Source: Mesorhizobium escarrei | GTDB taxonomy: Bacteria; Pseudomonadota; Alphaproteobacteria; Rhizobiales; Rhizobiaceae | Length of the DNA stretch: 64,000 nucleotides | Direction of reading: 5' to 3' | Assembly (NCBI RefSeq): GCF_935825525.1 | Contig: NZ_CAKXZT010000168.1 | Span: 1-64,000 of the forward strand | Shown here: one piece after another, positions 20,731-38,319 of the stretch | Layout of the letters: each line of letters starts with the position of its first letter | Position numbering within the stretch: position 1 is the stretch's first letter | Notes under the pieces: generated by a model | Databases searched by the model: none | What the model was told of the DNA's origin: nothing | The model's input: only the letters and a program-made list of their open reading frames with translations | Made by a program: the position numbers and the translations under genes

Positions 20731-21735
20731 TCAGTTCGAGGCTTGCGCCTTCAGCGCCCGCAGGATGCGTTCCGGTGTGATCGGCAGCGTGTCGATGCGA
20801 ACGCCGACGGCGTCGAAGACCGCGTTGGCGATCGCCGGGATTTGCGGGTTGGCGCACATTTCGCCTGGCCCCTTGGCGCCGTACGGCCCGTCGGCCGATG
20901 GCCGTTCCAGCACGATGATCTCGGTTTGCGCAAGATCGCCTGGTCCCGGCATCAGATATTGGTTGAAGTCGGTGCCGCCATGATCGCGGTCGGGGTAATA
21001 GGGTTCTGTCGTCTCGTAGAGCGCGTGGCTGATGCCCATCCACGAGCCGCCGACGAGCTGCTGCTCGACCATTTTCGGGTTCAGCGCGCGGCCGATCTCA
21101 AAGACGTTCTTGACAGTCAGCACGGTGATCTCGCCGGTCTCGTCATCGACCTCGACCTCGGCCACAGTGCAGGCATGCGCATAGCAGGTCGACGGTTTCA
21201 TCGCGCCGGTTTCTTTCTCAGGATATGAGCGCGGGATCAAAAACATGCCGCGGCCGGAAATCGAGCGGCCGCGCTTGAAATGCGCCGACAGCGCGACATC
21301 GAAGATCGAGATCGATCTTTGCGGCGCACCCTTGACTAGGATGTTGCCCTGGCCGTCGGTCTCGAGGTCCGAGGCGTTCACTTCCAGTTCCTCGGCCGCC
21401 ACTTCCAGCATCACCTGGCGGGCTTCCCTGGCCGCCTGGATGACGGCGTTGCCGGCGCGGTGGGTGCCGCGCGAGGCGAAGGTGCCCATGCAGTGCGGGC
21501 CGGTGTCGGTGTCGGCGGTGTCGACAACGACGCGGTCGGTCGGCACGCCGATCGTCTCGGCGCAGATCTGCGCCATGATCTGCTTCATGCCCTGGCCGAG
21601 ATCGACACTCGACAGCGTCACCATGAAATTGCCGGTCGGCGTCGAATGGACCAGCGCCTGCGTTGGGTCGCCACCGAGATTCATGCCGGTCGGATAGTTG
21701 ATTGCGGCGACGCCGCGTCCGCGCTTGATCGCCAT
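20731..21735 (-). CDS. Molybdenum hydroxylase large subunit, C-terminal piece
   Basis: The 334-aa product corresponds to the second half of a xanthine dehydrogenase/CoxL-type molybdopterin subunit. It has the VDLGQGMKQIMAQICAETIG helix, TDTGPHCMGTFASRGT and the C-terminal AKGPGEMCANPQIPAIANAV, where Glu of GPGE is the expected catalytic base. The ATG at 21735 comes one base after the stop of the N-terminal piece and has its own ribosome binding site (GAAGGGAGC). Thus the subunit is split between domains. The piece lacks the first Moco-binding loop, which lies in the upstream gene, so both products must assemble. Confidence 0.85.
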   Translation of the reverse strand: MAIKRGRGVAAINYPTGMNLGGDPTQALVHSTPTGNFMVTLSSVDLGQGMKQIMAQICAETIGVPTDRVVVDTADTDTGPHCMGTFASRGTHRAGNAVIQAAREARQVMLEVAAEELEVNASDLETDGQGNILVKGAPQRSISIFDVALSAHFKRGRSISGRGMFLIPRSYPEKETGAMKPSTCYAHACTVAEVEVDDETGEITVLTVKNVFEIGRALNPKMVEQQLVGGSWMGISHALYETTEPYYPDRDHGGTDFNQYLMPGPGDLAQTEIIVLERPSADGPYGAKGPGEMCANPQIPAIANAVFDAVGVRIDTLPITPERILRALKAQASN

Positions 21736-21736
21736 T

Positions 21737-23104
21737 TCAAGCTCCCTTCGCGTAGGACGACATCGCCATGAACTTCTCCGCCACCGGCCAGTTGGCGGCG
21801 CGCGAGGCTTCCTGCATGCACTCGATCAGAGCCGCGCCCTCGGTCGGCTGGCGGTGCGCCTTCATGTCGCCGTCGCGGTAGGCGTTGATGAAGCGGAATT
21901 CGAGCGGGTCCATGCCGATCAGCCGGGCGAGCTTGTCCATCTGCACCTCAAGCGCGAAATCGCCGATGGTGACGCCGAAGCCGCGCATGGCGGAGGAGGG
22001 GGTCCGGTTGGTGTAGACGCAGTAGGTGTCGATCCAGACATTCGGGATGGTGTAAGGGCCGGGATAGTGGCCGGCGCCCTTCTGCGCGCCATAGGGCGAA
22101 TGGCGCGAATAGGCGCCGGCATCGGTGTAGCCGGTGACTTTTCTGGCGACGATGCGGCCATCCTTCATGGCGCCGTCCTTGATGACGACCTTTTCGGCGG
22201 CGCGCGGCGAGGAAATCTGCATCTCCTCCTCGCGGCTATAGATGAAGGAGACCGGCCGCCCGGTTAGCTTGGCGCCGAGGATGGCGATCGGCTCGACGAT
22301 GACGTCGACCTTGCCGCCAAAGCCGCCGCCGACGGTGCCGCCGACGAAATGCAGTCTGTTGCCGGGCATCTGCAGGATGATCGAGGCGTTGTCGAGGGTG
22401 AAGAACATCGCTTGCGTGTTGGTGTAGCAGGTGAAGCGATCGTTGCCCTCCGGCGCGACGATGCAGCCGGTCGTCTCGGTCGGCGCGTGCTCGATCGGCG
22501 ACGATTGATAGGTCTGTTCGAGCACGTGATCGGCGCCGGCGAAACCGGCCTCGACATCGCCGAAGCGCACCTTGCGGCATTCGCCGCTGTCATAGAGGTA
22601 ATAATTCCGGCCGTGATATTCGTTGACAACAGGCGCGCCGGGCTTCAGCGCTTCTTCCATGTCGAAGACGGCCGGCAGCACCTCGTAGTCGACCTTGACC
22701 TTGGCCGTCGCTTCCTGGGCGGCACGCTCGGTCTCGGCCAGCACCGCCACCACGGCTTCGCCTTTCCAGCGCACCTTGCCGTCGGCCAGCACCGTCTCGT
22801 CCTCCGGGCCGATCTGGATCAGGATCAGGATGGTGTAGACATTGTGCGGCACATCCTTGGCGGTCAGGATTTTCACCACGCCCGGGTGCATCTGCGCCTC
22901 TGAAGTGTCGATGCTGCGGATGCGGGCGTGATGATACGGGCTGCGCACCATCTTCAGATGCAGCATGCCTGGAAAATTGCGGTCGGCGAAATAGGCGGTC
23001 TTGCCGGTTACATGACCGGGCGAATCGGAGCGCGGCCGGGGCTGGCCGATCTCGTGCAGATCGTCCTTGCGCTGGTCGGCGAAGTAGCTCTTGCGGAGTT
23101 CCAT
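21737..23104 (-). CDS. Molybdenum hydroxylase large subunit, N-terminal piece
   Basis: The 455-aa product begins with the aldehyde oxidase/xanthine dehydrogenase a/b hammerhead domain (about residues 20-140, GKTAYFADRNFPGMLHLKMV region) and continues into the first molybdopterin-binding domain. That domain has GGTVGGGFGGKVD near residue 250 and SSAMRGFGV near residue 385. It stops after MSSYAKGA, where a full subunit of 750-800 aa would continue with the next gene. GAGGGAG precedes the ATG. CoxL-type enzymes have an AYRGAGR loop with a special Cys; this one does not, so it is not a true CO dehydrogenase. The substrate is probably an N-heterocycle or aldehyde. Confidence 0.86.
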   Translation of the reverse strand: MELRKSYFADQRKDDLHEIGQPRPRSDSPGHVTGKTAYFADRNFPGMLHLKMVRSPYHHARIRSIDTSEAQMHPGVVKILTAKDVPHNVYTILILIQIGPEDETVLADGKVRWKGEAVVAVLAETERAAQEATAKVKVDYEVLPAVFDMEEALKPGAPVVNEYHGRNYYLYDSGECRKVRFGDVEAGFAGADHVLEQTYQSSPIEHAPTETTGCIVAPEGNDRFTCYTNTQAMFFTLDNASIILQMPGNRLHFVGGTVGGGFGGKVDVIVEPIAILGAKLTGRPVSFIYSREEEMQISSPRAAEKVVIKDGAMKDGRIVARKVTGYTDAGAYSRHSPYGAQKGAGHYPGPYTIPNVWIDTYCVYTNRTPSSAMRGFGVTIGDFALEVQMDKLARLIGMDPLEFRFINAYRDGDMKAHRQPTEGAALIECMQEASRAANWPVAEKFMAMSSYAKGA

Positions 23105-23118
23105 TTTTTTTGACTCCC

Positions 23119-23601
23119 TCAGGCCGCATTCTGCGAATTGGACCGCGCGGCGGTCAGCACCGCCTGGATGATCGGCTCGTAGCCGGTGCAGCGGCAGATA
23201 TTGCCCGACAGCGCCTCGACCACCTCGTCACGGCTGGGATCCGGCGTGTGATCGAGCAGCACCTTGGCGGCCATGATCATGCCCGGCGTGCAGAAGCCAC
23301 ATTGCGTGGCGAAGGCGTCGAGGAAGGCGCGCTGCAAAGGATGCAGCACGCCGCCTTGCGAAAGCCCCGATGTCGTGGTGATCGCCGCACCGTTGCAGGT
23401 TTCGGCCAGCGTCAGGCAGGACAGCCGCAGCTCGCCGTCGATGATGACCGAGCAGGCGCCGCATGTGCCCTGATGGCAGCCGCCCTTCGGCGAGGTGTCG
23501 CCGATCTTGTCGCGCAGTGCATGAAGCAACGTCGTGCCGCTGTCGATGAATTCGGCCTTCTCCGCGCCGTTGAGCGTGAACTGAACCGGGATCTTTGCCA
23601 T
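23119..23601 (-). CDS. Molybdenum hydroxylase [2Fe-2S] small subunit
   Basis: The 160-aa product has the plant-type ferredoxin cluster motif GGCHQGTCGACSV followed by the fourth Cys in LRLSCLT (about residues 40-70). The second cluster domain has QCGFCTPGMI and NICRCTGYEPI (about 100-150). This is the usual length for CoxS/XdhC-type subunits. It carries electrons from molybdenum to FAD. The gene is 14 bp upstream of the large-subunit gene. Confidence 0.92.
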   Translation of the reverse strand: MAKIPVQFTLNGAEKAEFIDSGTTLLHALRDKIGDTSPKGGCHQGTCGACSVIIDGELRLSCLTLAETCNGAAITTTSGLSQGGVLHPLQRAFLDAFATQCGFCTPGMIMAAKVLLDHTPDPSRDEVVEALSGNICRCTGYEPIIQAVLTAARSNSQNAA

Positions 23602-23649
23602 CTTTTACTCCTTGCGCCGCAGCCAGGCGGACATGTGCGCCATTGGCTT

Positions 23650-24441
23650 TCAGGCGAGCAAAAGCCGGCCGAGATGAACCGGCAGGACTTCGTTGCGATA
23701 CCAGGCACTGGCGATCGGATCGGTGACGGGCGAGGTGCCGTCGCTCGCGACGGCCAGCGCCGGCGCGATGCCGTCGCTGGTGAGTTTTCTGCCGAGCAGC
23801 GCCTCCTCCGCCGCCTTGGCGCGCATCGGCCGGTCGGCCATGCAGCCAAGCGCGATGTGCGCCGATGACACGGTTCCGTCCGGCGCCTGTTCCAGCACGG
23901 CGGCGATGCTCAGCACCGAGACGCCCTTCGGCTTGACCCTCGACACTTTCAGGAAGCGAAGGCCTTCCGCCGGAAGCGTAAATCCAACTTCGGTAACAAT
24001 GGCGTGGTTGCTTTGGCGTTTTGCCAGGAAGGTTTCGATCGGCTTCTCGCCGCCCTCGGTGCTGACAATTGCGTCCAGCGCCAGCAGCGCGACGGTGAAA
24101 TCGCCATAGGGCGCCGGGGCGAAGAGATTGCCGCCGACCGTCGCCATGTTACGGATCGCCGGGCCGCCAACGGCGCGCGCGGCACGGGCAAGTGCCACGA
24201 GATTCGGATGGCCGGCGATCGCCGCCATGGTCAACGAGGCGCCGATGCGAACGTTGTCGCCGGAAACGGTGATGGCCGACAGCGCCGGCTCGGTCGACCT
24301 GATGAGGCTGGAGACCGAGACATCGCCTTCATTGGCGCCGCGCACGACCAGCGTGCCGCCGCCGAGATAGCGGGTGCCGGCGGCTTTCAGCGCCGCATTG
24401 GCGTCCTTGACCGTCGAGAAAGTCTGCAGTGCAAGCGCCAT
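23650..24441 (-). CDS. Molybdenum hydroxylase FAD-binding medium subunit
   Basis: The 263-aa product has the two FAD-binding loops of the CoxM/XdhB family: YLGGGTLVVRGANEG (about residues 24-38) and GGPAIRNMATVGGNLF (about 92-107). The C-terminal CO dehydrogenase flavoprotein domain is shorter than in CoxM (about 280-290 aa). It passes electrons from the FeS subunit to an acceptor. The gene is 31 bp downstream of the START-domain gene and 48 bp upstream of the small-subunit gene in the same operon. Confidence 0.88.
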   Translation of the reverse strand: MALALQTFSTVKDANAALKAAGTRYLGGGTLVVRGANEGDVSVSSLIRSTEPALSAITVSGDNVRIGASLTMAAIAGHPNLVALARAARAVGGPAIRNMATVGGNLFAPAPYGDFTVALLALDAIVSTEGGEKPIETFLAKRQSNHAIVTEVGFTLPAEGLRFLKVSRVKPKGVSVLSIAAVLEQAPDGTVSSAHIALGCMADRPMRAKAAEEALLGRKLTSDGIAPALAVASDGTSPVTDPIASAWYRNEVLPVHLGRLLLA

Positions 24442-26049: not shown

Positions 26050-26084
26050 AACGAATAGCGCGCGTGACCTGCGGCCTATTCGTT
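26050..26084 (-). terminator. Stem at the 3' end of the permease gene
   Basis: CTATTCGTT (26076-26084), which contains the permease stop codon, is inversely repeated as AACGAATAG (26050-26058) with 17 bases between. It is a possible termination or mRNA-stabilising stem for the minus-strand importer operon. The rest of 25901-26075 holds nothing I can name. Confidence 0.35.
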
Positions 26085-27074
26085 GCGCCTGAAATTGCGG
26101 AGCCGGTCGAACAGGACCGCCATCAGAATGGCGCCGCCGATGAACACCCCCTGCCAGAAGGCGTTGATGCCGAGCAGGCCAAGGCTGTTGCGGATCACTT
26201 CGATCAGCGCCGCGCCGACGACGGCGCCAAAGGCCGTGCCCATGCCGCCGGCCAGGTTGGCGCCCCCGATGACGGTGGCGGCGATGACCTGAAGCTCCAT
26301 GCCGTTGCCGAGATTGGTGGTGACGGCGCCCAGCCAGCCGGTCTGGATAATGCCGGCAAGACCCGCTGCGAGCGCCGAGATCATGTAGACCGCGACCTTG
26401 ATCTGGCGCACCGGAACGCCGGTCAGCGTCGCCGCATGCTCGTTGCCGCCGATGGCGAAGATGTGCCGGCCGAATTTCGTCCAGCGCAGTACGAAGCCGG
26501 TGATCAGCGCCAGCACGATCATGTAGAGCACCGGATTGGCGATGCCGAACACAAAGGCGCCGCCGCCCAGCGCCAGAAGCTTGTCGTGGTCGGGCCCGAA
26601 CTGGAAGACGACGGTGTTGTTGGAGGCAACCATGGCCAGGCTGCGCGCGATCGATAGCATGCCGAGCGTCACCACGAAGGGCGGAAAACCGAGATAGGCG
26701 ATCAGGATCCCGTTGAAGGCGCCGATGATCAGCGCCGTCGCGATCGCAGCGGCAATGCCGATCTCGATGCCGTAGCCGGCATGCATGGTCACGGCGAGCA
26801 CCATCGAACACAGGCAAAGCACCGAGCCGACCGACAGGTCGATGCCGCCGGTGATGATGACGAAGGTCATGCCGAGCGCGACGATGGCAACGAAGGTGAT
26901 GTTGCGGGTGATGTTGTAGAGGTTCTTCGTCGTGGCGAATGAATCCGTGGCGACGGACAGGAACAGGCAGGCGAGGATGACCGCGATCACCACCCAGAAG
27001 GTCTGGCTGGCAAACACCCTGGTCAGCAAAGTGTGCTGTTTCTGCGCGATCGTCTGGTCAAGAGTTACTGCCAT
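26076..27074 (-). CDS. Sugar ABC transporter permease, RbsC type
   Basis: The 332-aa polytopic membrane protein has the family motif FVIITGGIDLSVGSVLCLCS in the first half and VIGGANLAGGMGTAFGAVVG in the second. The N-terminus is a long amphipathic lead before the first span. It is 40 bp downstream of the ATPase gene, and the operon is divergent from the binding-protein gene at 28283. The pair forms a complete importer with that protein. Confidence 0.88.
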   Translation of the reverse strand: MAVTLDQTIAQKQHTLLTRVFASQTFWVVIAVILACLFLSVATDSFATTKNLYNITRNITFVAIVALGMTFVIITGGIDLSVGSVLCLCSMVLAVTMHAGYGIEIGIAAAIATALIIGAFNGILIAYLGFPPFVVTLGMLSIARSLAMVASNNTVVFQFGPDHDKLLALGGGAFVFGIANPVLYMIVLALITGFVLRWTKFGRHIFAIGGNEHAATLTGVPVRQIKVAVYMISALAAGLAGIIQTGWLGAVTTNLGNGMELQVIAATVIGGANLAGGMGTAFGAVVGAALIEVIRNSLGLLGINAFWQGVFIGGAILMAVLFDRLRNFRRNE

Positions 27075-27114: not shown

Positions 27115-27855
<741 letters not shown>

Positions 27856-27994
27856 CAGACTGCTTCCTCCCCGTGCTTCCGGCTGCAGTTCTGCCGCGGC
27901 CTCGCTCTTCCCAGCTCCTCCCGAGAACAGCGCTTTCGCCCATTTACGCACATGCCCCCTTGCCGTCAACAGCGGCTTCTTTCGAAAAATCCGT

Positions 27995-28007
27995 TTTGTA
28001 GGACAAA
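27995..28007. promoter_or_regulatory. TTTGT-N3-ACAAA operator, probable FCD-GntR site
   Basis: TTTGTAGGACAAA is a perfect 5-bp inverted repeat with a 3-base centre. It lies in the promoter region between the divergent ATPase (27855) and binding-protein (28283) genes, just upstream of the TTGACG at 28014. A second palindrome with the same TTGT-N3-ACAA core is at 31533-31547. FCD-type GntR proteins bind sites of this form, and two such genes are at 29408 and 32578. Confidence 0.55.
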
Positions 28008-28013
28008 TAGCAA

Positions 28014-28040
28014 TTGACGTTGGTCGCAAGCCGATATTAG
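28014..28040 (+). promoter_or_regulatory. Possible promoter of the binding-protein gene
   Basis: TTGACG (28014-28019) and TATTAG (28035-28040) resemble -35 and -10 hexamers with a 15-base spacer, shorter than the usual 17. The palindrome at 27995-28007 ends 6 bp upstream. The leader to the gene at 28283 would be about 235 bases; I see no gene in it. Confidence 0.35.
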
Positions 28041-28282
28041 CTAAGCGTCGGAGGAGATTATGCCGATCTCCTGTTACGGTGCGCCGGGCGGAATCGGCGG
28101 AGGTTTATCGGTCGAGGAACTGGCAGCGTCCGTATTCGCGCTGGTCTGCGGCCGCATCTGGAAATGCTTATCGGCCCGGCTTGGCGACACGAGCGCTCGC
28201 GAAACGAACCTCTGTCATCGCGCATCCGGGCTGGTCTGTGTGGCGGGCACGCCGTGTCCGTCTGTTTCAAGGGAGGACTGAA

Positions 28283-29272
28283 ATGAGGAAATCACTATTG
28301 CTCGCTGCCGTCGCGATGTTGGCATTGGGCGCCGGGCCGGCCATGGCCAAGAAACAGCTCGTCATCGTGGTTAAGGGGCTCGATAATCCGTTCTTCGAGG
28401 CTATCAACCAGGGTTGCCAGAAATGGAACTCGGAAAACGCCAACTCGGAATATGAATGCTTCTACACCGGTCCGGCGTCGACCTCGGACGAGGCGGGCGA
28501 AGCTCAGATCGTCCAGGACATGCTGAGCAAGCCGGACACGGTGGCGATGGCCATTTCGCCGTCCAACGCGCCGCTGATCGCGCAGACGATCAAAAGCGCC
28601 AATCCGTCGATCCCGATCATGACGCTCGACGCCGATCTCAGCAAGGAAGATGCGGCGCTGCGCAAGACCTATCTCGGCACCGACAACTACCTGATGGGCT
28701 ACAAGATCGGTGAGTACATCAAGAAGGCCAAGCCGGAGGGTGGCAAGATCTGCACCATCCAAGGCAATCCGGCGGCCGACAACATCCTGCGCCGCGCCCA
28801 GGGCATGCGCGACGCGCTTACAGGTCAGAAGGATCTCCCGGCGCTCGCCGGCGAGGGCGGCTGGACCGAGGTCGCCGGCTGCCCGGTGTTCACCAATGAC
28901 GACGGTGCAAAGGGCGTGCAGGCGATGACCGATATCCTCGCCGCCAATCCCGATCTCGACGCCTTCGGCATCATGGGCGGCTGGCCGCTGTTCGGCGCAC
29001 CGCAGCCCTATCGCGACCTGTTCAAGCCGATGGCCGACAAGATCGCCAAGAACGAGTTCGTCATCGGCGCTGCCGATACGATCGGTGAGGAAGTGGCCAT
29101 CGCCAAGGAAGGCCTGGTGACCGCGCTGGTCGGCCAGCGGCCGTTCGAGATGGGCTACAAGGCGCCCTCGGTGATGATCGACCTGATCGAAGGCAAGCCC
29201 GTCGCCGATCCGGTCTTCACCGGTCTCGACGAGTGCACCAAGGATACGGCCGACACCTGCATCCAGAAGTAG
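28283..29272 (+). CDS. Sugar ABC transporter substrate-binding protein, ribose type
   Basis: The 329-aa periplasmic binding protein has a signal peptide (MRKSLLLAAVAMLALGAGPA to MAKK, cleavage near residue 22) and a peripla_BP_4 domain (QLVIVVKGLDNPFFEAINQG at the mature N-terminus). Four Cys in the mature part (QGCQKW, YECFY, GKICT, AGCPV), plus two near the C-terminus, suggest disulfides. The start at 28283 has GGGAGG upstream; the longer open frame covers the promoter region. It is divergent from its presumed permease and ATPase genes. Confidence 0.88.
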   Translation: MRKSLLLAAVAMLALGAGPAMAKKQLVIVVKGLDNPFFEAINQGCQKWNSENANSEYECFYTGPASTSDEAGEAQIVQDMLSKPDTVAMAISPSNAPLIAQTIKSANPSIPIMTLDADLSKEDAALRKTYLGTDNYLMGYKIGEYIKKAKPEGGKICTIQGNPAADNILRRAQGMRDALTGQKDLPALAGEGGWTEVAGCPVFTNDDGAKGVQAMTDILAANPDLDAFGIMGGWPLFGAPQPYRDLFKPMADKIAKNEFVIGAADTIGEEVAIAKEGLVTALVGQRPFEMGYKAPSVMIDLIEGKPVADPVFTGLDECTKDTADTCIQK

Positions 29273-29285
29273 GATCGCAGTTTTC

Positions 29286-29310
29286 GGGGCGCCCGATCGA
29301 CGGGCGCCCC
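29286..29310 (+). terminator. Hairpin downstream of the binding-protein gene
   Basis: GGGGCGCCCG (29286-29295) pairs perfectly with CGGGCGCCCC (29301-29310) around a 5-base loop, 14 bp after the stop codon. There is no T-run. It is a likely end or protective stem of the binding-protein message. Confidence 0.6.
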
Positions 29311-29407
29311 GTCACCCCGGTTCACGAAAACCTACGAGGTGAGATTGCTGGGGCGAACCGCTCCTGCTTTGCCGCGCCTTGAGTTCCGCCTGTGCCGGAG
29401 ATCATAG

Positions 29408-30223
29408 ATGTCGGACGCAAGATCAAGAAAGCCACTTAGCACGGTCAAGCCACGGGCCACGGTCAAGGAACGGGGCAAGGTCAAGGCACAGGCTGCCCGT
29501 CCGTCCGGCGCCCGCCGTGCCGACGCGGCGCTGATCCCCGGATCGAGCGTGCATGCGTCGCTGGCCAACGAGATCGGGCTCAGGATCGTGCGCGGCGACT
29601 ATCCGCCGGGAACCATCCTGCCCAACGAGGCCAAATGGTCCGAGACTTTCGACGTCAGCCGCTCGGCGGTTCGCGAAGCGATCAAGATGCTGATGGCCAA
29701 GAGCCTGCTGGCCTCACGCCCCAAGATCGGCAGCTGGGTCGAGCCGAAAGAGCGCTGGAACCTGCTCGACCGTGACGTGCTCGCCTGGTACGCGACGGCG
29801 CCCGATCGCGAAATGTTCCTGCGCACCGTCCAGGAATTCCGTCACATCATCGAGCCGGAAGCCAGCGCCTTTGCCGCGATCCGGCGCACAGACGAGCAGA
29901 TGGCCGAAATCAGCCTGGCCTGCCGGGAGATGGGCGAGGCGGCGACGCTGCCGGAGCGCACCCGCGCCGATACGCGTTTTCACCTGGCCATCCTGCGGGC
30001 GTCGGGCAACGACCTGCTGGTGCCGCTCGGCGTGCTGATCGAATCGGCGCTCGATCATCTCTTCGTTTTCGTCACGCGCGAAACCAGCGACCAGCCTCGG
30101 GCGCAGGCGCTGCATGAGGCGATCGAAAAGAATATCCGTCTCAGGCGCCCGGCGGCTGCAAGGAATGCCGTGCACAGGCTGCTCGCCAACACCGACGAGG
30201 TTATCGGGCGGTCGCGACGGTGA
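29408..30223 (+). CDS. GntR family regulator, FCD (FadR) subfamily, copy 1
   Basis: The 271-aa product has an N-terminal extension rich in Arg, Lys and Ala (about 40 residues), then a winged helix (GDYPPGTILPNEAKWSETFD, VSRSAVREAIKMLMAKSLL; about residues 55-115). The all-helical FCD ligand domain (about 135-255) has metal-site positions in FRHIIEPEA and TRFHLAILRASGN. It is nearly identical, over about 215 residues, to the regulator at 32578. The pair brackets a dehydrogenase and an SDR gene and follows an importer; all probably belong to one sugar-acid regulon. Candidate operators are at 27995 and 31533. Confidence 0.87.
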   Translation: MSDARSRKPLSTVKPRATVKERGKVKAQAARPSGARRADAALIPGSSVHASLANEIGLRIVRGDYPPGTILPNEAKWSETFDVSRSAVREAIKMLMAKSLLASRPKIGSWVEPKERWNLLDRDVLAWYATAPDREMFLRTVQEFRHIIEPEASAFAAIRRTDEQMAEISLACREMGEAATLPERTRADTRFHLAILRASGNDLLVPLGVLIESALDHLFVFVTRETSDQPRAQALHEAIEKNIRLRRPAAARNAVHRLLANTDEVIGRSRR

Positions 30224-30240
30224 TTTGCCACCGCAAAGTC

Positions 30241-30440
30241 GGCGCCGCCCCTCATCCGGCTGCCACCTTCTCCCCGTATAGTGACGGGGAGAAGGGGCTG
30301 GCCGCGATCTTGGCACACCTTCTTGCAACGCAGGTAGTTGCTTGCAACGCAGGTAGTTGGCGAAATCACCAGCGAAAGCGTCCTTCTCCCCGTCACTATA
30401 CGGGGAAGAAGTGCCCGGCAAGGCGATGAGGGGCAGCGCC
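30241..30440. repeat. Mosaic inverted repeat with an internal tandem duplication
   Basis: Outer arms GGCGCCGCCCCTCAT (30241-30255) and ATGAGGGGCAGCGCC (30426-30440) are inverted copies with one mismatch. Inside are CCTTCTCCCCGTATAGTGAC and its inverse near 30383. A perfect 19-bp tandem duplication, CTTGCAACGCAGGTAGTTG, occupies 30322-30340 and 30341-30359. The element fills the gap between the convergent GntR and dehydrogenase genes, and no gene is seen in 30224-30484. Confidence 0.65.
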
Positions 30441-30484
30441 GACCTTGATCGAAAAATAGTGCGCCGAGCGTATTGCCCAAGCTC

Positions 30485-31423
30485 TCAAATCGTCTGTTTC
30501 TTCCCATCCTTCGTCGGCGTCAAATCGACGCCGTTGACCTTGCCAATATGCGTGGCCAGCATCGGCACATATTGATCGGCGGGCCCAGCGGCGAATGCGC
30601 CGGCGAAGGCGTTCTTGGTGGCATTGCCCAGCGGGTTGGCGATGCCGGCGGCACCGGCCATCGATTCGAGATAGGTGAGGTCCTTGAAGGCGTTGGCGAT
30701 GGTGAATTTGTGCGCGTCGCGGTCGCCTTCCAGCGTCCAGCGCATAAAAGTCTGGTAGAAGCCGCAATCCATGCGGCCGTTGCGGATGACGCTGTCGAAA
30801 CGCGGCGGCGAGATGCCGACCTTCTCAGCCAGCGCCAGCGCCTCGGAATAGATTGCCGCATAGCCCAGCGAGATGAAATTGTTGAGCAGCTTCATACGGT
30901 GGCCGTCGCCGGTGTCGCCGATATGGACGATACGTCCGGCCCAGGTGTTGAGCACCGGCTTCAGCCGGGCAAAGGCCGCGTCGGATGCACCGACCATGGC
31001 GTCGAGCGTGCCTTCCCAAGCCTCCTTCGGGGTGCGGCTGAGCGGGGCATCGACATAGTCGACGCCGAGCGCCTTGAGTTCGGCGGCAAGCGCCACCGTC
31101 GAGGTCGGGTCGGAGGTCGAGCAATCAACGACCACCGAACCCTTCTTCAAGCCTTCCTTGAGGCCGCCCGGCCCGCGGATGATAGCCTCGACCTCGCGCG
31201 AGCCGGTGACGCAGATGAAGACGATATCGGATGCCACTGCCACCTCACGCGAAGTCGCGGCTTCCTTCGCACCGCGGCCGAGCAGGTCTTGCGCCGGCGC
31301 GCGGTTCTTGCGGCCGAGAAACGTCAGGAAGTAGCCCTTGTCTACGATGTTTTTCGCGATTCCGTGACCCATCAAGCCAAGTCCGATGAAGCCGATCTTT
31401 TCGCTCGCGGAAGTCGTATTCAT
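30485..31423 (-). CDS. NAD(P)-dependent beta-hydroxyacid dehydrogenase (3-hydroxyisobutyrate dehydrogenase family)
   Basis: The 312-aa product has the N-terminal dinucleotide-binding GFIGLGLMGHGIAKN, the substrate-binding VDAPLSRTPKEAWEGTLDAM segment (the family has DAPVSGG) and the catalytic Lys motif GHRMKLLNNF. The family oxidises 3-hydroxyacids such as tartronate semialdehyde precursors, 3-hydroxyisobutyrate or sugar acids. Replacement of the usual SGG by SRT in the substrate loop suggests a bulkier or more acidic substrate. The start at 31423 has AGGACG upstream; the longer frame crosses the operator at 31533. It is divergent from the SDR gene at 31579. Confidence 0.86.
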   Translation of the reverse strand: MNTTSASEKIGFIGLGLMGHGIAKNIVDKGYFLTFLGRKNRAPAQDLLGRGAKEAATSREVAVASDIVFICVTGSREVEAIIRGPGGLKEGLKKGSVVVDCSTSDPTSTVALAAELKALGVDYVDAPLSRTPKEAWEGTLDAMVGASDAAFARLKPVLNTWAGRIVHIGDTGDGHRMKLLNNFISLGYAAIYSEALALAEKVGISPPRFDSVIRNGRMDCGFYQTFMRWTLEGDRDAHKFTIANAFKDLTYLESMAGAAGIANPLGNATKNAFAGAFAAGPADQYVPMLATHIGKVNGVDLTPTKDGKKQTI

Positions 31424-31532
31424 GACGTGTCGTCCTGTGTTGCTGATATCGATGACGGCGCTGCACTTTGGCAGCCGAATTGTTGAGGCGGGTTTTTGCC
31501 GCAGGCGGTTGGCAGGCGATTGCGGAATGCCA

Positions 31533-31547
31533 TATTGTCTGACAATA
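31533..31547. promoter_or_regulatory. TATTGT-N3-ACAATA operator, probable FCD-GntR site
   Basis: TATTGTCTGACAATA is a perfect inverted repeat (6-bp arms, 3-base centre). It lies 32 bp upstream of the SDR start (31579) and 110 bp upstream of the divergent dehydrogenase start (31423). It shares the TTGT-N3-ACAA core and spacing with the site at 27995-28007. Probably one or both nearby FCD-GntR proteins bind it. Confidence 0.6.
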
Positions 31548-31578
31548 CACATGAATTCCAGAAAATGTGGAGAGCAAA

Positions 31579-32475
31579 ATGACGAAACGGATCATGTTCA
31601 CCGGCGGCAGCGGCAAGGCCGGGCGTCATGTCGTGCAGTATCTGGTCGAGCAGGGCTGCCAGGTGCTCAACATCGACACCAAGCCGCTCGACAACCCCAA
31701 GGTGCGCACCTTGATCACCGACATCACCGATAGCGGGCAGGTGTTCAATGCGCTGTCGAGCTATATGGGCCTGCATGAATTCGACCCGTCGCTGCGCACG
31801 CAGCCGGTCGACGCCGTGGTGCATTTCGCGGCGATCCCGCGCATCATGATCACGCCCGACAACGAGGTGTTCCGCATCAACGCGCTCGGCACCTACAATG
31901 TCATCGAGGCGGCGGTGAAGCTCGGCATCCGCAAGGTGGTGATCGCCTCCAGCGAGACCACCTATGGGCTGGTCTTCGCCAACGAGCCGCGCGACCCGAC
32001 ATATTTCCCGCTCGACGAGGACTACGACGTCGATCCAATGGACAGCTATGCGCTGTCGAAGATCGTCAATGAGAAGACGGCGCGCGCCTTCGCGCTGCGC
32101 AGCGGCATCGACATCTACGCCTTGCGCATCGGCAACGTCATCGAGCCGCATGAATATTCGCTGTTCCCGAAATGGTTCGCCGACCCGGGTTTCCGCAAGC
32201 GGATCGCCTGGAGCTATATCGACGGGCGCGACCTCGGCCAGATCACGCTGCGCGCCATCGAGAAGGACGGGCTCGGCTATCAGGTGTTCAACGCCGCCAA
32301 TGACGACACCTCCTCCGACCTGCCTACGGCTGAACTCTTGAAGCGGTTTTATCCCGGCGTGCCGGTCAAGGTTGAGCTCGGCGAATACGAGACGCTGCTC
32401 TCGAACCGCAAGGCGCGGGATATGCTCGGGTTCCGCCCGGAACACAGCTGGCGGAAATACGTCAAAACGACATGA
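31579..32475 (+). CDS. NAD(P)-dependent SDR dehydrogenase/epimerase
   Basis: The 298-aa extended short-chain dehydrogenase/reductase has the nucleotide-binding TGGSGKAGRHVVQYL at the N-terminus (TGxxGxxG), the catalytic Ser in IASSETTYG and the YALSK motif (Tyr-x-x-x-Lys). It resembles sugar nucleotide epimerases and uronate dehydrogenases in outline. With a hydroxyacid dehydrogenase and an FCD-GntR gene next to it, oxidation of a sugar or uronate is more likely than nucleotide-sugar epimerisation. The start at 31579 was chosen for GGAGAG upstream; 31567 is an in-frame alternative. Confidence 0.83.
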   Translation: MTKRIMFTGGSGKAGRHVVQYLVEQGCQVLNIDTKPLDNPKVRTLITDITDSGQVFNALSSYMGLHEFDPSLRTQPVDAVVHFAAIPRIMITPDNEVFRINALGTYNVIEAAVKLGIRKVVIASSETTYGLVFANEPRDPTYFPLDEDYDVDPMDSYALSKIVNEKTARAFALRSGIDIYALRIGNVIEPHEYSLFPKWFADPGFRKRIAWSYIDGRDLGQITLRAIEKDGLGYQVFNAANDDTSSDLPTAELLKRFYPGVPVKVELGEYETLLSNRKARDMLGFRPEHSWRKYVKTT

Positions 32476-32577: not shown

Positions 32578-33354
32578 ATGCGGGACGGCAAGCCGAATAA
32601 GGGAAAAACACCGGCCAAGGCGGCGTCCGCCGAGCGCCCGGCTGTCGTTCGCCGTGCCGATACGGCACGTATGCCTGGGGCGAGCGTGCATGCGTCGCTA
32701 GCCAACGAAATCGGTCTCAGGATCGTGCGCGGCGACTATCCGCCGGGAACCATCCTGCCCAACGAGGCCAAATGGTCGGAGACTTTCGACGTCAGCCGCT
32801 CGGCGGTGCGCGAAGCGATAAAAATGCTGATGGCTAAGAGCCTTTTGGCGTCGCGTCCAAAGATCGGCAGCTGGGTCGAGCCGAAAGAGCGCTGGAACCT
32901 GCTCGACCGCGACGTGCTGGCCTGGTACGCGACGGCGCCCGATCGCGAAGTGTTCCTCAGAACCGTGCAAGAGTTCCGCCACATCATCGAGCCGGAAGCG
33001 ACCGCCTTTGCCGCCATGCGGCGCACAGACGAGCAGATGGCCGAAATCAGCCGGGCCTGCCGGGAGATGGGCGCGGCGACGACGCTGCAGGAGCGCACAC
33101 GCGCCGACACGCGTTTTCATCTGGCGATCCTGCGCGCCTCCGGCAACGACCTCCTGGTGCCGCTCGGCGTGCTGATCGAATCGGCGTTCGATCATCTGTT
33201 CGCCTATACGACGCGGGAACTGGACGATTTGCAGCACGCGCAGAAGCTGCACGAGGCGATCGAAAAGAACATCCGCCTGCAGCGGCCGGATGCGGCACGC
33301 AACGCGGTGCGCAAGCTGTTGGCCAATACAGACAGCGTCATCAAATCACGCTGA
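32578..33354 (+). CDS. GntR family regulator, FCD (FadR) subfamily, copy 2
   Basis: The 258-aa product is a paralogue of the regulator at 29408. From SVHASLANEIGLRIVRGDYP through the FCD domain the two differ at only a few dozen positions, and the DNA is also closely similar, so the duplication is recent or kept similar by gene conversion. The recognition helix (VSRSAVREAIKMLMAKSLLA) is identical, so both should bind the same operators. The ligand domains differ mainly after the FDHLF segment (YTTRELDDLQHAQK against VTRETSDQPRAQA). The N-terminal 35 residues are unrelated. It starts 102 bp after the SDR gene. Confidence 0.87.
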   Translation: MRDGKPNKGKTPAKAASAERPAVVRRADTARMPGASVHASLANEIGLRIVRGDYPPGTILPNEAKWSETFDVSRSAVREAIKMLMAKSLLASRPKIGSWVEPKERWNLLDRDVLAWYATAPDREVFLRTVQEFRHIIEPEATAFAAMRRTDEQMAEISRACREMGAATTLQERTRADTRFHLAILRASGNDLLVPLGVLIESAFDHLFAYTTRELDDLQHAQKLHEAIEKNIRLQRPDAARNAVRKLLANTDSVIKSR

Positions 33355-37047: not shown

Positions 37048-37290
37048 AAGCCTGAGCACGGTGGACTACAAGACGCCGCTCACCACCCAAAGCCGAAATT
37101 CAAACTGTGGCGCTAGCCGAGTTCGGGATAGCTGTCCTGGCCCGTTCGCTTGACAATGGGCTAAGGCTGCGCGACGCCAGTCGGGGTGCGCGGCAGCTAT
37201 AATCTCTGGGTGGCATGGCGAAGTGGCAAAGACGCTGAACAGCATTTCGTGGCCGCGCTTCGGCGAAGGCGCCGCGTGCGGGACAAGGCT

Positions 37291-38319
37291 ATGACCAAAC
37301 CGCGCTCGCGCCGTGGCGGCGGCCGTCCGACGATCGCCGATGTCGCGCGCAAGGCCGGCGTCGGCGCCATCACCGTCTCCCGCGCCTTGCGCGAGCCGGG
37401 GCGCGTTTCGGAGGATCTGCGCCGCCAGATCCAGGCGGCTGTCGATGAGCTCGGCTATCTGCCCGACCCGAATGCGCGAGCGTTGGCATCGGCGCGTGCC
37501 GAGGTCTTTGGCGTGCTGGTGCCGTCGCTCACCAACAGCGTCTTTGCCGAAGTGCTGCGCGGCATTTATGACAGTCTGTCGGACAGCTCCTACCGTATCC
37601 AGCTCGGCAACACCCATTATTCCGGCCTCGAGGAGGAGCGGCTGCTGCAGGTGTTCGGCCCGCAGCGCCCGGCGGCGCTGATCGTGGCGGGCATCGACCA
37701 GACGCCAATTTCGCGAAGACTGCTCGAGACGGCCGGCTGCCCAGTGGTGCAGGTCATGGAAACCGGGCCCGATCCGGTCGACATGATGGTCGGCTTCTCG
37801 CATTTCGACGGCGGCAAGGCGGCGACTGAGCACATGATCGAAGCGGGCTATCGCCGCATCGGCTTCATCGGCGCGCGCATGGACCCGCGCTCGCAGCGGC
37901 GTCTGGCCGGTTATCGCGCGGCGATGGAGGCAGCTGGCCTGTTCGACGCGCGGCTTGTTACCACCACGCCAGTGCCGTCCAGCGTGACGCTCGGGCGCGG
38001 ATTGTTTCGCGACGCGCTGGCTAAGATGCCGACGCTGGACGGGGCTTTCTGCAACAATGACGACATCGCGCTCGGCGCTCTGTTCGAGTGCCACCGCGCC
38101 TCGATCGCCGTGCCGAAGACGATCGGCATCACAGGCTTCAACGATCTCGACATGATGGAAGTGGCTTTCCCCTCTGTCACTAGCGTCCGGACGCCTCGCT
38201 ATGAGATCGGCCGGCTGTCAGTCGCCATGGCGCTCGCGGCGATTGCAGGCAAGCGGCCGCAAGAGCCGGTCGTCGATCTCGGCTTCGAACTCAAGCGCCG
38301 CGAGAGCACGGCCCGCTGA
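37291..38319 (+). CDS. LacI family regulator, GntR (gluconate)-repressor-like
   Basis: The 342-aa product starts with a LacI helix-turn-helix (RPTIADVARKAGVGAITVSR, residues 11-30, then RALREPGRVSEDLR). It continues into a sugar-sensing domain (FGVLVPSLTNSVFAEVLRG, then CNNDDIALG and ITGFNDLDMMEVAFPSVTSV). The overall pattern is that of GntR, the E. coli gluconate repressor. The palindrome ATGGTAGCGCTACCAT, which resembles known LacI-family operators, lies 43 bp after its stop, in front of the importer operon. Together with gluconokinase at the operon end, this suggests repression relieved by gluconate or a similar acid. The start at 37291 fits family length; the ORF is open from 37186. Confidence 0.86.
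   Translation: MTKPRSRRGGGRPTIADVARKAGVGAITVSRALREPGRVSEDLRRQIQAAVDELGYLPDPNARALASARAEVFGVLVPSLTNSVFAEVLRGIYDSLSDSSYRIQLGNTHYSGLEEERLLQVFGPQRPAALIVAGIDQTPISRRLLETAGCPVVQVMETGPDPVDMMVGFSHFDGGKAATEHMIEAGYRRIGFIGARMDPRSQRRLAGYRAAMEAAGLFDARLVTTTPVPSSVTLGRGLFRDALAKMPTLDGAFCNNDDIALGALFECHRASIAVPKTIGITGFNDLDMMEVAFPSVTSVRTPRYEIGRLSVAMALAAIAGKRPQEPVVDLGFELKRRESTAR

Follow-up and report, generated by a model that had tools for sequence, protein, structure and literature searches.

The window, by which is meant the whole stretch of 64,000 nucleotides of Mesorhizobium escarrei DNA that was analyzed, contains a sugar-type uptake cluster, which has on the reverse strand genes for a CUT2-type sugar ABC permease (26076-27074; Pfam BPD_transp_2, E 5.5e-40) and a CUT2-type ATPase of 247 residues with one ABC domain (27115-27858, the start being approximate; ABC_tran, E 6.7e-34). 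The forward strand carries sbp, for a periplasmic sugar-binding protein (28283-29272; Peripla_BP_4, E 6.7e-43), followed on its 3' side by gntR1 (29408-30223), and also sdr, for an SDR of the NAD-dependent epimerase/dehydratase type (31579-32475; Epimerase, E 6.5e-24), followed on its 3' side by gntR2 (32578-33354); between these pairs lies dh, on the reverse strand (30485-31423), which encodes a 3-hydroxyisobutyrate-dehydrogenase-like oxidoreductase (NAD_binding_2 and NAD_binding_11). The top NCBIfam matches of the permease are sugar permeases, all below their cut-offs (AraH, 210.7 bits against 378), and the top match of dh is TIGR01505 (171.5 bits against 340.75). A substrate was sought by solved-structure searches with the SDR, dh and sbp products and was not found: the SDR has distant relatives only (best E 1.7e-13), dh has family-level relatives only, and sbp matches ribose-type or other sugar-binding proteins. 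The term "sugar-acid" for the substrate class is a guess, because no search result names a substrate. No treatment of this gene cluster was found in the literature, and the accessible part of PMC3454389 holds nothing that can be linked to this CUT2 transporter.

Two further features surround sbp. A strong hairpin lies between sbp and gntR1 (29285-29311, forward strand; the fold of 29272-29325 gives −33.9 kcal/mol, z −4.34), with no run of T behind it, and a terminator scan does not call it a terminator. The leader of sbp (28030-28290, forward strand) preserves both ends of an SDR gene that has been lost, as judged by similarity to the corresponding gaps of relatives, in which an SDR frame is present: positions 28030-28089 match the promoter side and gene start in locus L073 (E 7e-10), and 28158-28290 match the end of the gene together with the gap before sbp in locus L077 (E 1e-19), the best value from 30 base shuffles being 6e-4.

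Two palindromes with the same core lie in the divergent gaps of the cluster, as the sequence-only reading of this DNA had described: site 1, TTTGTAGGACAAA (27995-28007, within a conserved 15-mer, TTTTGTAGGACAAAT), separates the permease and ATPase genes from sbp, and site 2, TATTGTCTGACAATA (31533-31547), separates dh from sdr. The TTGTNNNACAA core occurs three times in the window against 0.23 expected, a number reached in none of 100 shuffles; its third occurrence, at 27581, is within the ATPase gene. The genome scan proposed in that reading gave no enrichment, since TTGT-N3-ACAA is found at 51 places in 7.7 Mb, fewer than the 84 of a backward-read control, and the core is thereby ruled out as a genome-wide marker of the regulon. 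When flanked by W on both sides it is found 12 times, against 5 in the control, and two of the 12 are sites 1 and 2. In the absence of genome-wide enrichment the core alone is weak evidence, and the case rests on position and conservation. The suggestion that the shared core defines the regulon did not hold, as this core is subfamily-wide (PMC4494728, and DgoR IR1 in PMC12288454, in the portions of both that were accessible); being common to the FadR subfamily, it names no regulator by itself. The accessible text of PMC4494728 gives a FadR-subfamily consensus of TKGT/ACMA, with 3 nucleotides between GT and AC, for DgoR, ExuR, FadR, GlcC, LldR and PdhR, and according to that of PMC12288454 the IR1 operator of Escherichia coli DgoR contains TTGTAGTACAA, with the core TTGT-N3-ACAA. 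Both of the present sites fit TKGT-N3-ACMA near predicted promoters and are conserved in relatives.

Conservation in relatives that keep the genes had been set beforehand as a test of the two sites. Where a gntR ortholog is present in the locus, 54 of 55 relatives have the site 1 core, the single miss (L082) having one mismatch, and 54 of 54 have that of site 2. Over all relatives, which are mostly of one genus and are not independent of one another, the site 1 core is kept in 57 of 61, and the site 2 core in 54 of the 55 in which dh and sdr are divergent, the 15-mer being identical in 51 of these 54; in loci lacking gntR the corresponding figures are 3 of 6 and 0 of 1. Site 1 has all eight of its arm bases intact in 48 of 51 aligned relatives (10 more, with an extra gene or a long insert in the gap, were left out of the alignment), a level reached by only 4 of 414 windows in that gap: the site, the windows shifted by one base to either side and the one at 28241. 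The site 2 arms are retained in 54 of 55 relatives, equaled by 2 of 145 windows (the site and a one-base neighbor). In the gap alignments both sites stand out against variable flanks, and the arms of site 1 are near-constant while its center varies among AGG, ATG, AAG, CGG and CAG, with changes in Ensifer, Aminobacter, Microvirga and others. At the level of sequence, both palindromes are nearly invariant throughout the Mesorhizobium-type loci. That they are functionless chance matches might be argued from the frequency of the core, which is not rare and falls below the control, but median arm retention among gap windows is 7 in the site 1 gap (51 relatives) and 5 in the site 2 gap (55 relatives), and because of the conservation test chance is so very unlikely as to be nearly negligible.

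The two regulators match PF00392 (GntR) and PF07729 (FCD) above the gathering scores, which places them in the FadR (FCD) subfamily, and they are 85% identical to each other (212 of 248 columns). Their DNA-binding regions, said in the sequence-only reading to have identical recognition helices, are identical over 89 residues in a row, a run that covers the winged helix, as counted on the GntR1/GntR2 alignment. In the Mesorhizobium-type loci both sites are accompanied by syntenic gntR genes. Since the sites have operator-like conservation and mostly travel with gntR, and since each gntR gene is downstream of one of them, the simplest reading, to which we would give a probability of about 0.7, makes both palindromes the operators of a single small FCD-GntR (FadR-subfamily) regulon with GntR1 and GntR2 as its regulators. 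Of the earlier proposal of one regulon under a duplicated repressor, the regulon is consistent with the conserved sites mostly accompanying gntR, but the duplication is dispensable: 14 loci in which only the sdr-linked gntR is present retain both sites, and therefore one regulator can serve both.

The sites could also be real operators whose main binder is some other FCD-GntR protein encoded in the genome, with GntR1 and GntR2 just happening to lie nearby or sharing them, which we regard as distinctly unlikely. The subfamily-wide core would allow this, and five other genes of the genome are related to GntR2 at E values under 1e-10 (by similarity alone; one has an internal stop). Ensifer and Sinorhizobium retain site 1 without a local ortholog: three Ensifer loci (L071, L074 and L076) keep the site in genomes where no gntR relative reaches E 1e-40, so that another protein may bind it there, and of five plasmid loci read, out of 113 matched records, those of S. 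meliloti, S. fredii and E. canadensis keep a core although the 8 kb around sbp contain no gntR. Labrys loci L089 and L092, which also tell against the favored reading, have the core before sdr but lack a local gntR, and their genomes hold relatives of at most 38-39% identity. In the six gntR-less genomes that were searched the best relatives are 36-38% identical. Against another binder, however, are the joint presence of core and gntR, in 54 of 55 loci for site 1 and 54 of 54 for site 2, their synteny in Mesorhizobium-type loci, and the altered left arm of site 1 in three loci without gntR (L067, L069 and L093). Against the favored reading, six loci (L075, L077, L078, L082, L088 and L094) have gntR in a different gene order and no exact core before sdr, that of L094 having one mismatch.

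The predicted promoters, mostly read by eye on conserved blocks, place the two sites differently. That of the ATPase and permease genes (27941-27969, reverse strand) consists of TTGACG (27969-27964) and TAAATG (27946-27941) with a spacing of 17 nucleotides, and that of sbp (28014-28042, forward strand) of TTGACG (28014-28019) and TTAGCT (28037-28042), also 17 nucleotides apart; site 1 is upstream of both predicted −35 boxes, which is not the classical position of a repressor. The predicted sdr promoter region (31509-31548, forward strand) is a conserved block with two alternatives, TTGGCA-16-CATATT from the scan (31509-31536) and TTGCGG-17-CAATAC by eye (31520-31548), and the −10 box of either overlaps site 2. 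Under the reading favored above, both sites would be occupied, when no inducer is present, by dimers of GntR1 and GntR2, either homo- or heteromeric. On site 2 these would block the −10 region and silence sdr-gntR2; on site 1, which lies between two importer promoters placed back to back, they would hold down both promoters. Release would come from the compound taken up or from an oxidized product, so that import, the dehydrogenase, the SDR and the regulators would be induced together. We infer repression by GntR1 and GntR2, and consider it unlikely that the same regulators activate, or act in both ways, at site 1 while repressing at site 2. Activation would suit the center of site 1, located 13 bp ahead of the −35 box predicted for sbp and 32 bp from that of the ATPase gene, and a second putative operator in relatives such as L070, L021, L033 and L054, about 10 bp from the ATPase −35 box. 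However, these boxes were assigned by eye and neither promoter flanking site 1 was reported by the consensus promoter scan, and DgoR, the closest solved relative, is a repressor that overlaps its promoter, according to the accessible text of PMC12288454.

Phylogenetic analysis separates the Mesorhizobium-type copies linked to sbp (34 rows) and to sdr (51 rows) into distinct clades (98/93 and 100/97, the bootstrap being incompletely settled and three partial or interrupted rows having been dropped), on which ground a recent duplication or gene conversion of gntR1 and gntR2 was rejected; it should be noted that the tree rows labeled "dn" (L082, L088 and L094) are actually behind sbp. Deeper in the tree both clades group together (97/89), apart from the Aminobacter and Microvirga copies, so that one copy may long ago have replaced the other. 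Within a locus, the two copies average 94.5% identity in the winged helix and 83.1% elsewhere. Third codon positions of the winged helix are 74.4% identical within loci compared with 70.4% between genomes, and in 10 of 36 cases the closest partner of a copy is the one in its own locus; the within-locus value being only slightly the higher, minor gene conversion may have occurred. A tentative, somewhat doubtful elaboration is a split self-regulating circuit, in which old paralogs with a common DNA-binding domain and diverging sensor domains would each stand behind one of the two operators that they share, and a second, weaker putative operator about 41 bp from site 1, found in approximately half of the relatives and absent from the window, would add cooperative control of the importer in those relatives. 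Two effectors, for example the compound that is taken up and an oxidation product further down the pathway, would then be read on one set of operators.

ExuR and UxuR are FCD-GntR regulators of sugar-acid use. The regulators described here give weak profile matches to the Uxu regulator (46.4 and 48.1 bits) and ExuR (37.8 and 38.1 bits), far under the equivalog cut-offs of 442 and 396 bits, and score below the NCBIfam cut-offs of PdhR, LldR, GlcC, NanR, UxuR and ExuR, the best being PdhR (76.1 bits against 330). Their NCBIfam matches include no DgoR profile, but the solved sequence closest to GntR2 is the C-terminal domain of DgoR (7c7e, E 1.1e-29). Among the nine scanned proteins of the locus there is no uxu or uxa enzyme and no galactonate (dgo-type) enzyme, and the importer is a CUT2-type ABC system. 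The D-galactonate regulon of DgoR in Escherichia coli likewise combines an FCD-GntR protein with a TTGT-N3-ACAA core (PMC12288454, accessible text), but DgoR acts as repressor of a single operon by way of two closely spaced repeats, whereas the present system has two paralogs and two transcription units with one palindrome each in the window. The FadR-subfamily divergons of Suvorova et al. (2015) resemble it in having TKGT/ACMA motifs as single sites between divergent operons, and double sites are also described there (PMC4494728, accessible text); the terms Mesorhizobium and Rhizobi- are absent from the main text of that paper.

This is well-conserved but ordinary bacterial gene control, with a core that is a normal FadR-subfamily operator, and existing knowledge of GntR regulation in principle is unchanged by it. 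What it would provide is a concrete regulon for an uncharacterized uptake cluster that is syntenic across the Mesorhizobium-type loci sampled, where the operators are nearly fixed, and is partly kept in Aminobacter, Microvirga and Ensifer. The natural variants, with one or two regulators, one or two site 1 operators, or a site without a regulator, form a ready comparison set for studying the loss and retention of a duplicated regulator and of its operators.

The 12 W-flanked cores were viewed in 3-kb loci, and in longer stretches for C147:19752, C13, C126:308974 and C131. The core at C147:19752, TTTGTCTGACAAT, is a candidate third member of the regulon; it is in a divergent gap before a gene for a CUT2-type binding protein, opposite GH15, 6PGD-type and G6PD genes (Pfam). 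Of 18 matches to this binding protein, 17 were examined, L137 (a second copy, 52% identical) being left out, and the core is within 140 nucleotides before the gene in 9 (8 of the 16 other genomes and G000) and has one mismatch in L122. The remaining 7 have no core in the 140 nucleotides; in the six that were read, a different gene, which by eye we take to be an SMP-30-like lactonase, precedes that of the binding protein, and two of the six, L131 and L132, have TTGTCTGACAA further upstream. Since every genome with the site in the 140 nucleotides also has gntR, presence and absence cannot decide what binds it. The cores at C13 and C126:308974 are inside gene-like frames, and rough frames place those of C173 and C186 between divergent frames and that of C46 between two frames.

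The palindromes at 27995-28007 (site 1) and 31533-31547 (site 2), which share the core TTGT-N3-ACAA, lie at the coordinates proposed by the sequence-only reading, whose observation is confirmed, and with a probability of about 0.7 they are operators of a single GntR regulon. That reading had envisaged one sugar-acid uptake and oxidation regulon under a duplicated repressor; the single regulon remains likely, but neither action as a repressor nor the sugar-acid label nor a requirement for two regulators was borne out. The genes are arranged in the order permease-ATPase (minus strand), site 1, the binding-protein gene sbp and gntR1 (plus), the dehydrogenase gene dh (minus), site 2, and the short-chain dehydrogenase gene sdr and gntR2 (plus). 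Family profile searches place the binding protein, ATPase and permease in the CUT2 sugar kind and dh in the 3-hydroxyisobutyrate/tartronate-semialdehyde reductase superfamily, below every curated NCBIfam cut-off; sdr is an SDR of epimerase/dehydratase type, for which they gave no curated family name. The translation of dh (30485-31423) contains DAPLSRTP in place of the usual family substrate loop, D-x-P-V-S-G-G; its substrate may be unusual. The source genome (7.71 Mb; window on contig C168) has as its nearest SDR relatives in the named collection Mesorhizobium records that are 97-98% identical. A search of the open-licence literature, outside which most subscription papers fall, found no paper on this cluster.

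The core TTGTNNNACAA occurs three times in the window as compared with 0.23 expected (0 of 100 shuffles contained three), one copy (27581) falling within the ATPase gene. Since it is found at 51 places genome-wide versus 84 for a backward-read control, the core is no regulon signature by itself; when flanked by A or T on each side, it occurs 12 times versus 5 for the control. It corresponds to the operator of the FadR subfamily, TKGT/ACMA with GT and AC three bases apart, as given for DgoR, ExuR, FadR, GlcC, LldR and PdhR (PMC4494728). The DgoR repeat IR1 contains TTGTAGTACAA (PMC12288454). Among solved sequences, the nearest to GntR2 is 7c7e, the C-terminal domain of DgoR. The two sites are a further case of this known operator kind.

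Conservation in relatives was the decisive test and favors the reading of both palindromes as operators. Relatives' loci were collected with the SDR, the 80 top matches out of no fewer than 585 being taken, and those at a contig end, with a missing gene or with a different order were omitted from the counts, as was the window. This left 61 loci with divergent ATPase and sbp genes and 55 with dh and sdr as divergent neighbors; the core is retained in 57 of the former and 54 of the latter, counts that are not independent events because the relatives are mostly of one genus. The site 1 core is present in 54 of 55 loci with a gntR ortholog and 3 of 6 without, and the site 2 core in 54/54 and 0/1, respectively. 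The sole site 1 miss with gntR, L082, has one mismatch (TTTTGTATGATAAAT), and the three without gntR all read TTATAGTATGACAAATA, with the left arm changed and the right arm intact. The 15-mer TTTTGT...ACAAAT of site 1 is found in 55 of the 57, the other two differing by one flanking base each, with AGG, ATG, AAG, CGG or CAG as central bases; that of site 2 is identical in 51/54. In gap alignments of 51 relatives for site 1 (ten with gaps >700 bases being excluded) and 55 for site 2, both sites are conserved islands, equalled by no unrelated window in the site 2 gap and by one (28241, near the sbp start) in that of site 1.

Against the reading, sites and regulators also occur apart. Six gntR loci with another gene order (L075, L077, L078, L082, L088 and L094) have no exact core before sdr, L094 being one mismatch from it. 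Conversely, three Ensifer loci (L071, L074 and L076) keep site 1 with no gntR relative in the genome at E 1e-40. The search for plasmid loci matched 113 records, five of which were read: the core is kept in S. meliloti, S. fredii and E. canadensis (L183, L185 and L187) and absent in two Phyllobacterium, and none of the five has gntR within 8 kb of sbp. Two Labrys loci (L089 and L092) carry TATTGTCATACAAAA about 44 nt before sdr, at the site 2 position, in genomes whose best GntR relatives are 38-39% identical; the best relatives in the six gntR-less genomes searched are 36-38% identical. The Ensifer, plasmid and Labrys loci indicate that presence of the operator does not require this regulator; where the core stands without gntR, another FCD protein has to be taken into account as the binder.

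Site 2 overlaps the predicted sdr -10 box in either promoter assignment, TTGGCA-16-CATATT (31509-31536, from a consensus scan) or TTGCGG-17-CAATAC (31520-31548, by eye), a position that would fit repression. Two conserved promoter-like blocks, arranged back to back, flank site 1, with 13 bp separating it from the predicted -35 box of sbp and 32 bp from that of the ATPase gene; both sets of boxes were read by eye and are absent from the consensus scan output. The position of site 1 fits either repression of both promoters or activation.

In 32 of the 61 relatives, a second copy of the operator, usually AATTGTCNGACGAWT and never more than one mismatch away, is centered 39-42 bp from site 1 on the ATPase side (exactly 41 bp in 28); allowing two mismatches, it is found in 38. 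The chance of a match in five positions is ∼0.001 from base shuffles of short gaps. The copy is present also in Aminobacter, Microvirga and M. zhangyense, and S. meliloti and S. fredii have it with one mismatch at a distance of 40 bp; it is absent in Ensifer and a few others, in six near relatives of the window (L017, L018, L019, L023, L034 and L045) and at 27950-27990 of the window itself. Of the examples read, L070, L021, L033 and L054 have about 10 bp between the copy and the ATPase -35 box, an arrangement that mirrors that of site 1 and the sbp promoter, and the -35-like box of L022 is farther away. The distance from the ATPase -35 box to the site 1 center is 32 bp in the window and the six near relatives, as compared with 51 bp in six loci whose copy has two mismatches and in L070. 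The FadR subfamily is known to have double sites in divergons (PMC4494728).

Ten of the 61 relatives, including Aminobacter, Microvirga and Ensifer, have a site 1 gap >1.2 kb, and in those read, site 1 and sbp are separated by an SDR gene (about 326 codons), which is intact in these three genera. Window positions 28030-28089 match its promoter side and first codons (L073, E 7e-10) and 28158-28290 its final part together with the gap after it (L077, E 1e-19), as compared with 6e-4 for the best of 30 base shuffles. Because both ends align, the long untranslated sbp leader (28030-28290) is most simply read as the remnant of an SDR gene whose middle was removed by internal deletion. A search of the rest of the genome, run without a positive control, gave no copy of this SDR.

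GntR1 and GntR2 are 85% identical, with identical winged helices. A tree of 97 rows places the sbp-linked copies of Mesorhizobium-type loci in one clade and the sdr-linked copies in another; the duplication therefore predates the split of these loci. Two regulators are not needed for two operators, because 14 loci (L021, L026-L030, L035, L040-L043, L046, L051 and L052; twelve named Mesorhizobium and two MAGs) have the sdr-linked gntR only, sbp and dh being found on either side of the gntR1 position, and keep both palindromes. A different sample held 17 genomes with a match at E 1e-60, and in 4 of them there is just one such match. The gntR1 frame of L025 (about 1015-1809) has an in-frame stop, which suggests decay of this copy in one MAG. 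Given their places behind sbp (gntR1) and sdr (gntR2), the two regulator genes would each plausibly be expressed from the promoter beside one operator; a strong hairpin without a T-run between sbp and gntR1 makes partial read-through, rather than a plain operon, possible.

Elsewhere in the genome (G000), TTTGTCTGACAAT at C147:19752-19764 (L109, L115) precedes the gene of another binding protein of CUT2 type, which is divergent from GH15, 6PGD-type and G6PD genes; in 8 of the 16 other genomes covered, the core is kept no more than 140 nt ahead of the ortholog, and this site is a possible third regulon member. W-flanked cores also lie between divergent, roughly drawn frames at C173:89669 (L112) and C186:42119 (L114). 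Xanthine-dehydrogenase-type genes occur near the same importer in the window (20731-24441, by frame reading) and in Phyllobacterium zundukense (L186, 13079-16987, by annotation). A LacI-type gluconate-repressor-like gene (37186-38319; NF052440, 435.6 bits, cut-off 400) is followed from 38579 onwards by frames reading as a second sugar importer, together another sugar-type region within about 6 kb. A short palindromic repeat forms an inverted pair at 30264-30413; exact matches to CTTCTCCCCGTCACTATACGGGGA number 12 across the genome, including two in this pair, as compared with 0 for the control.
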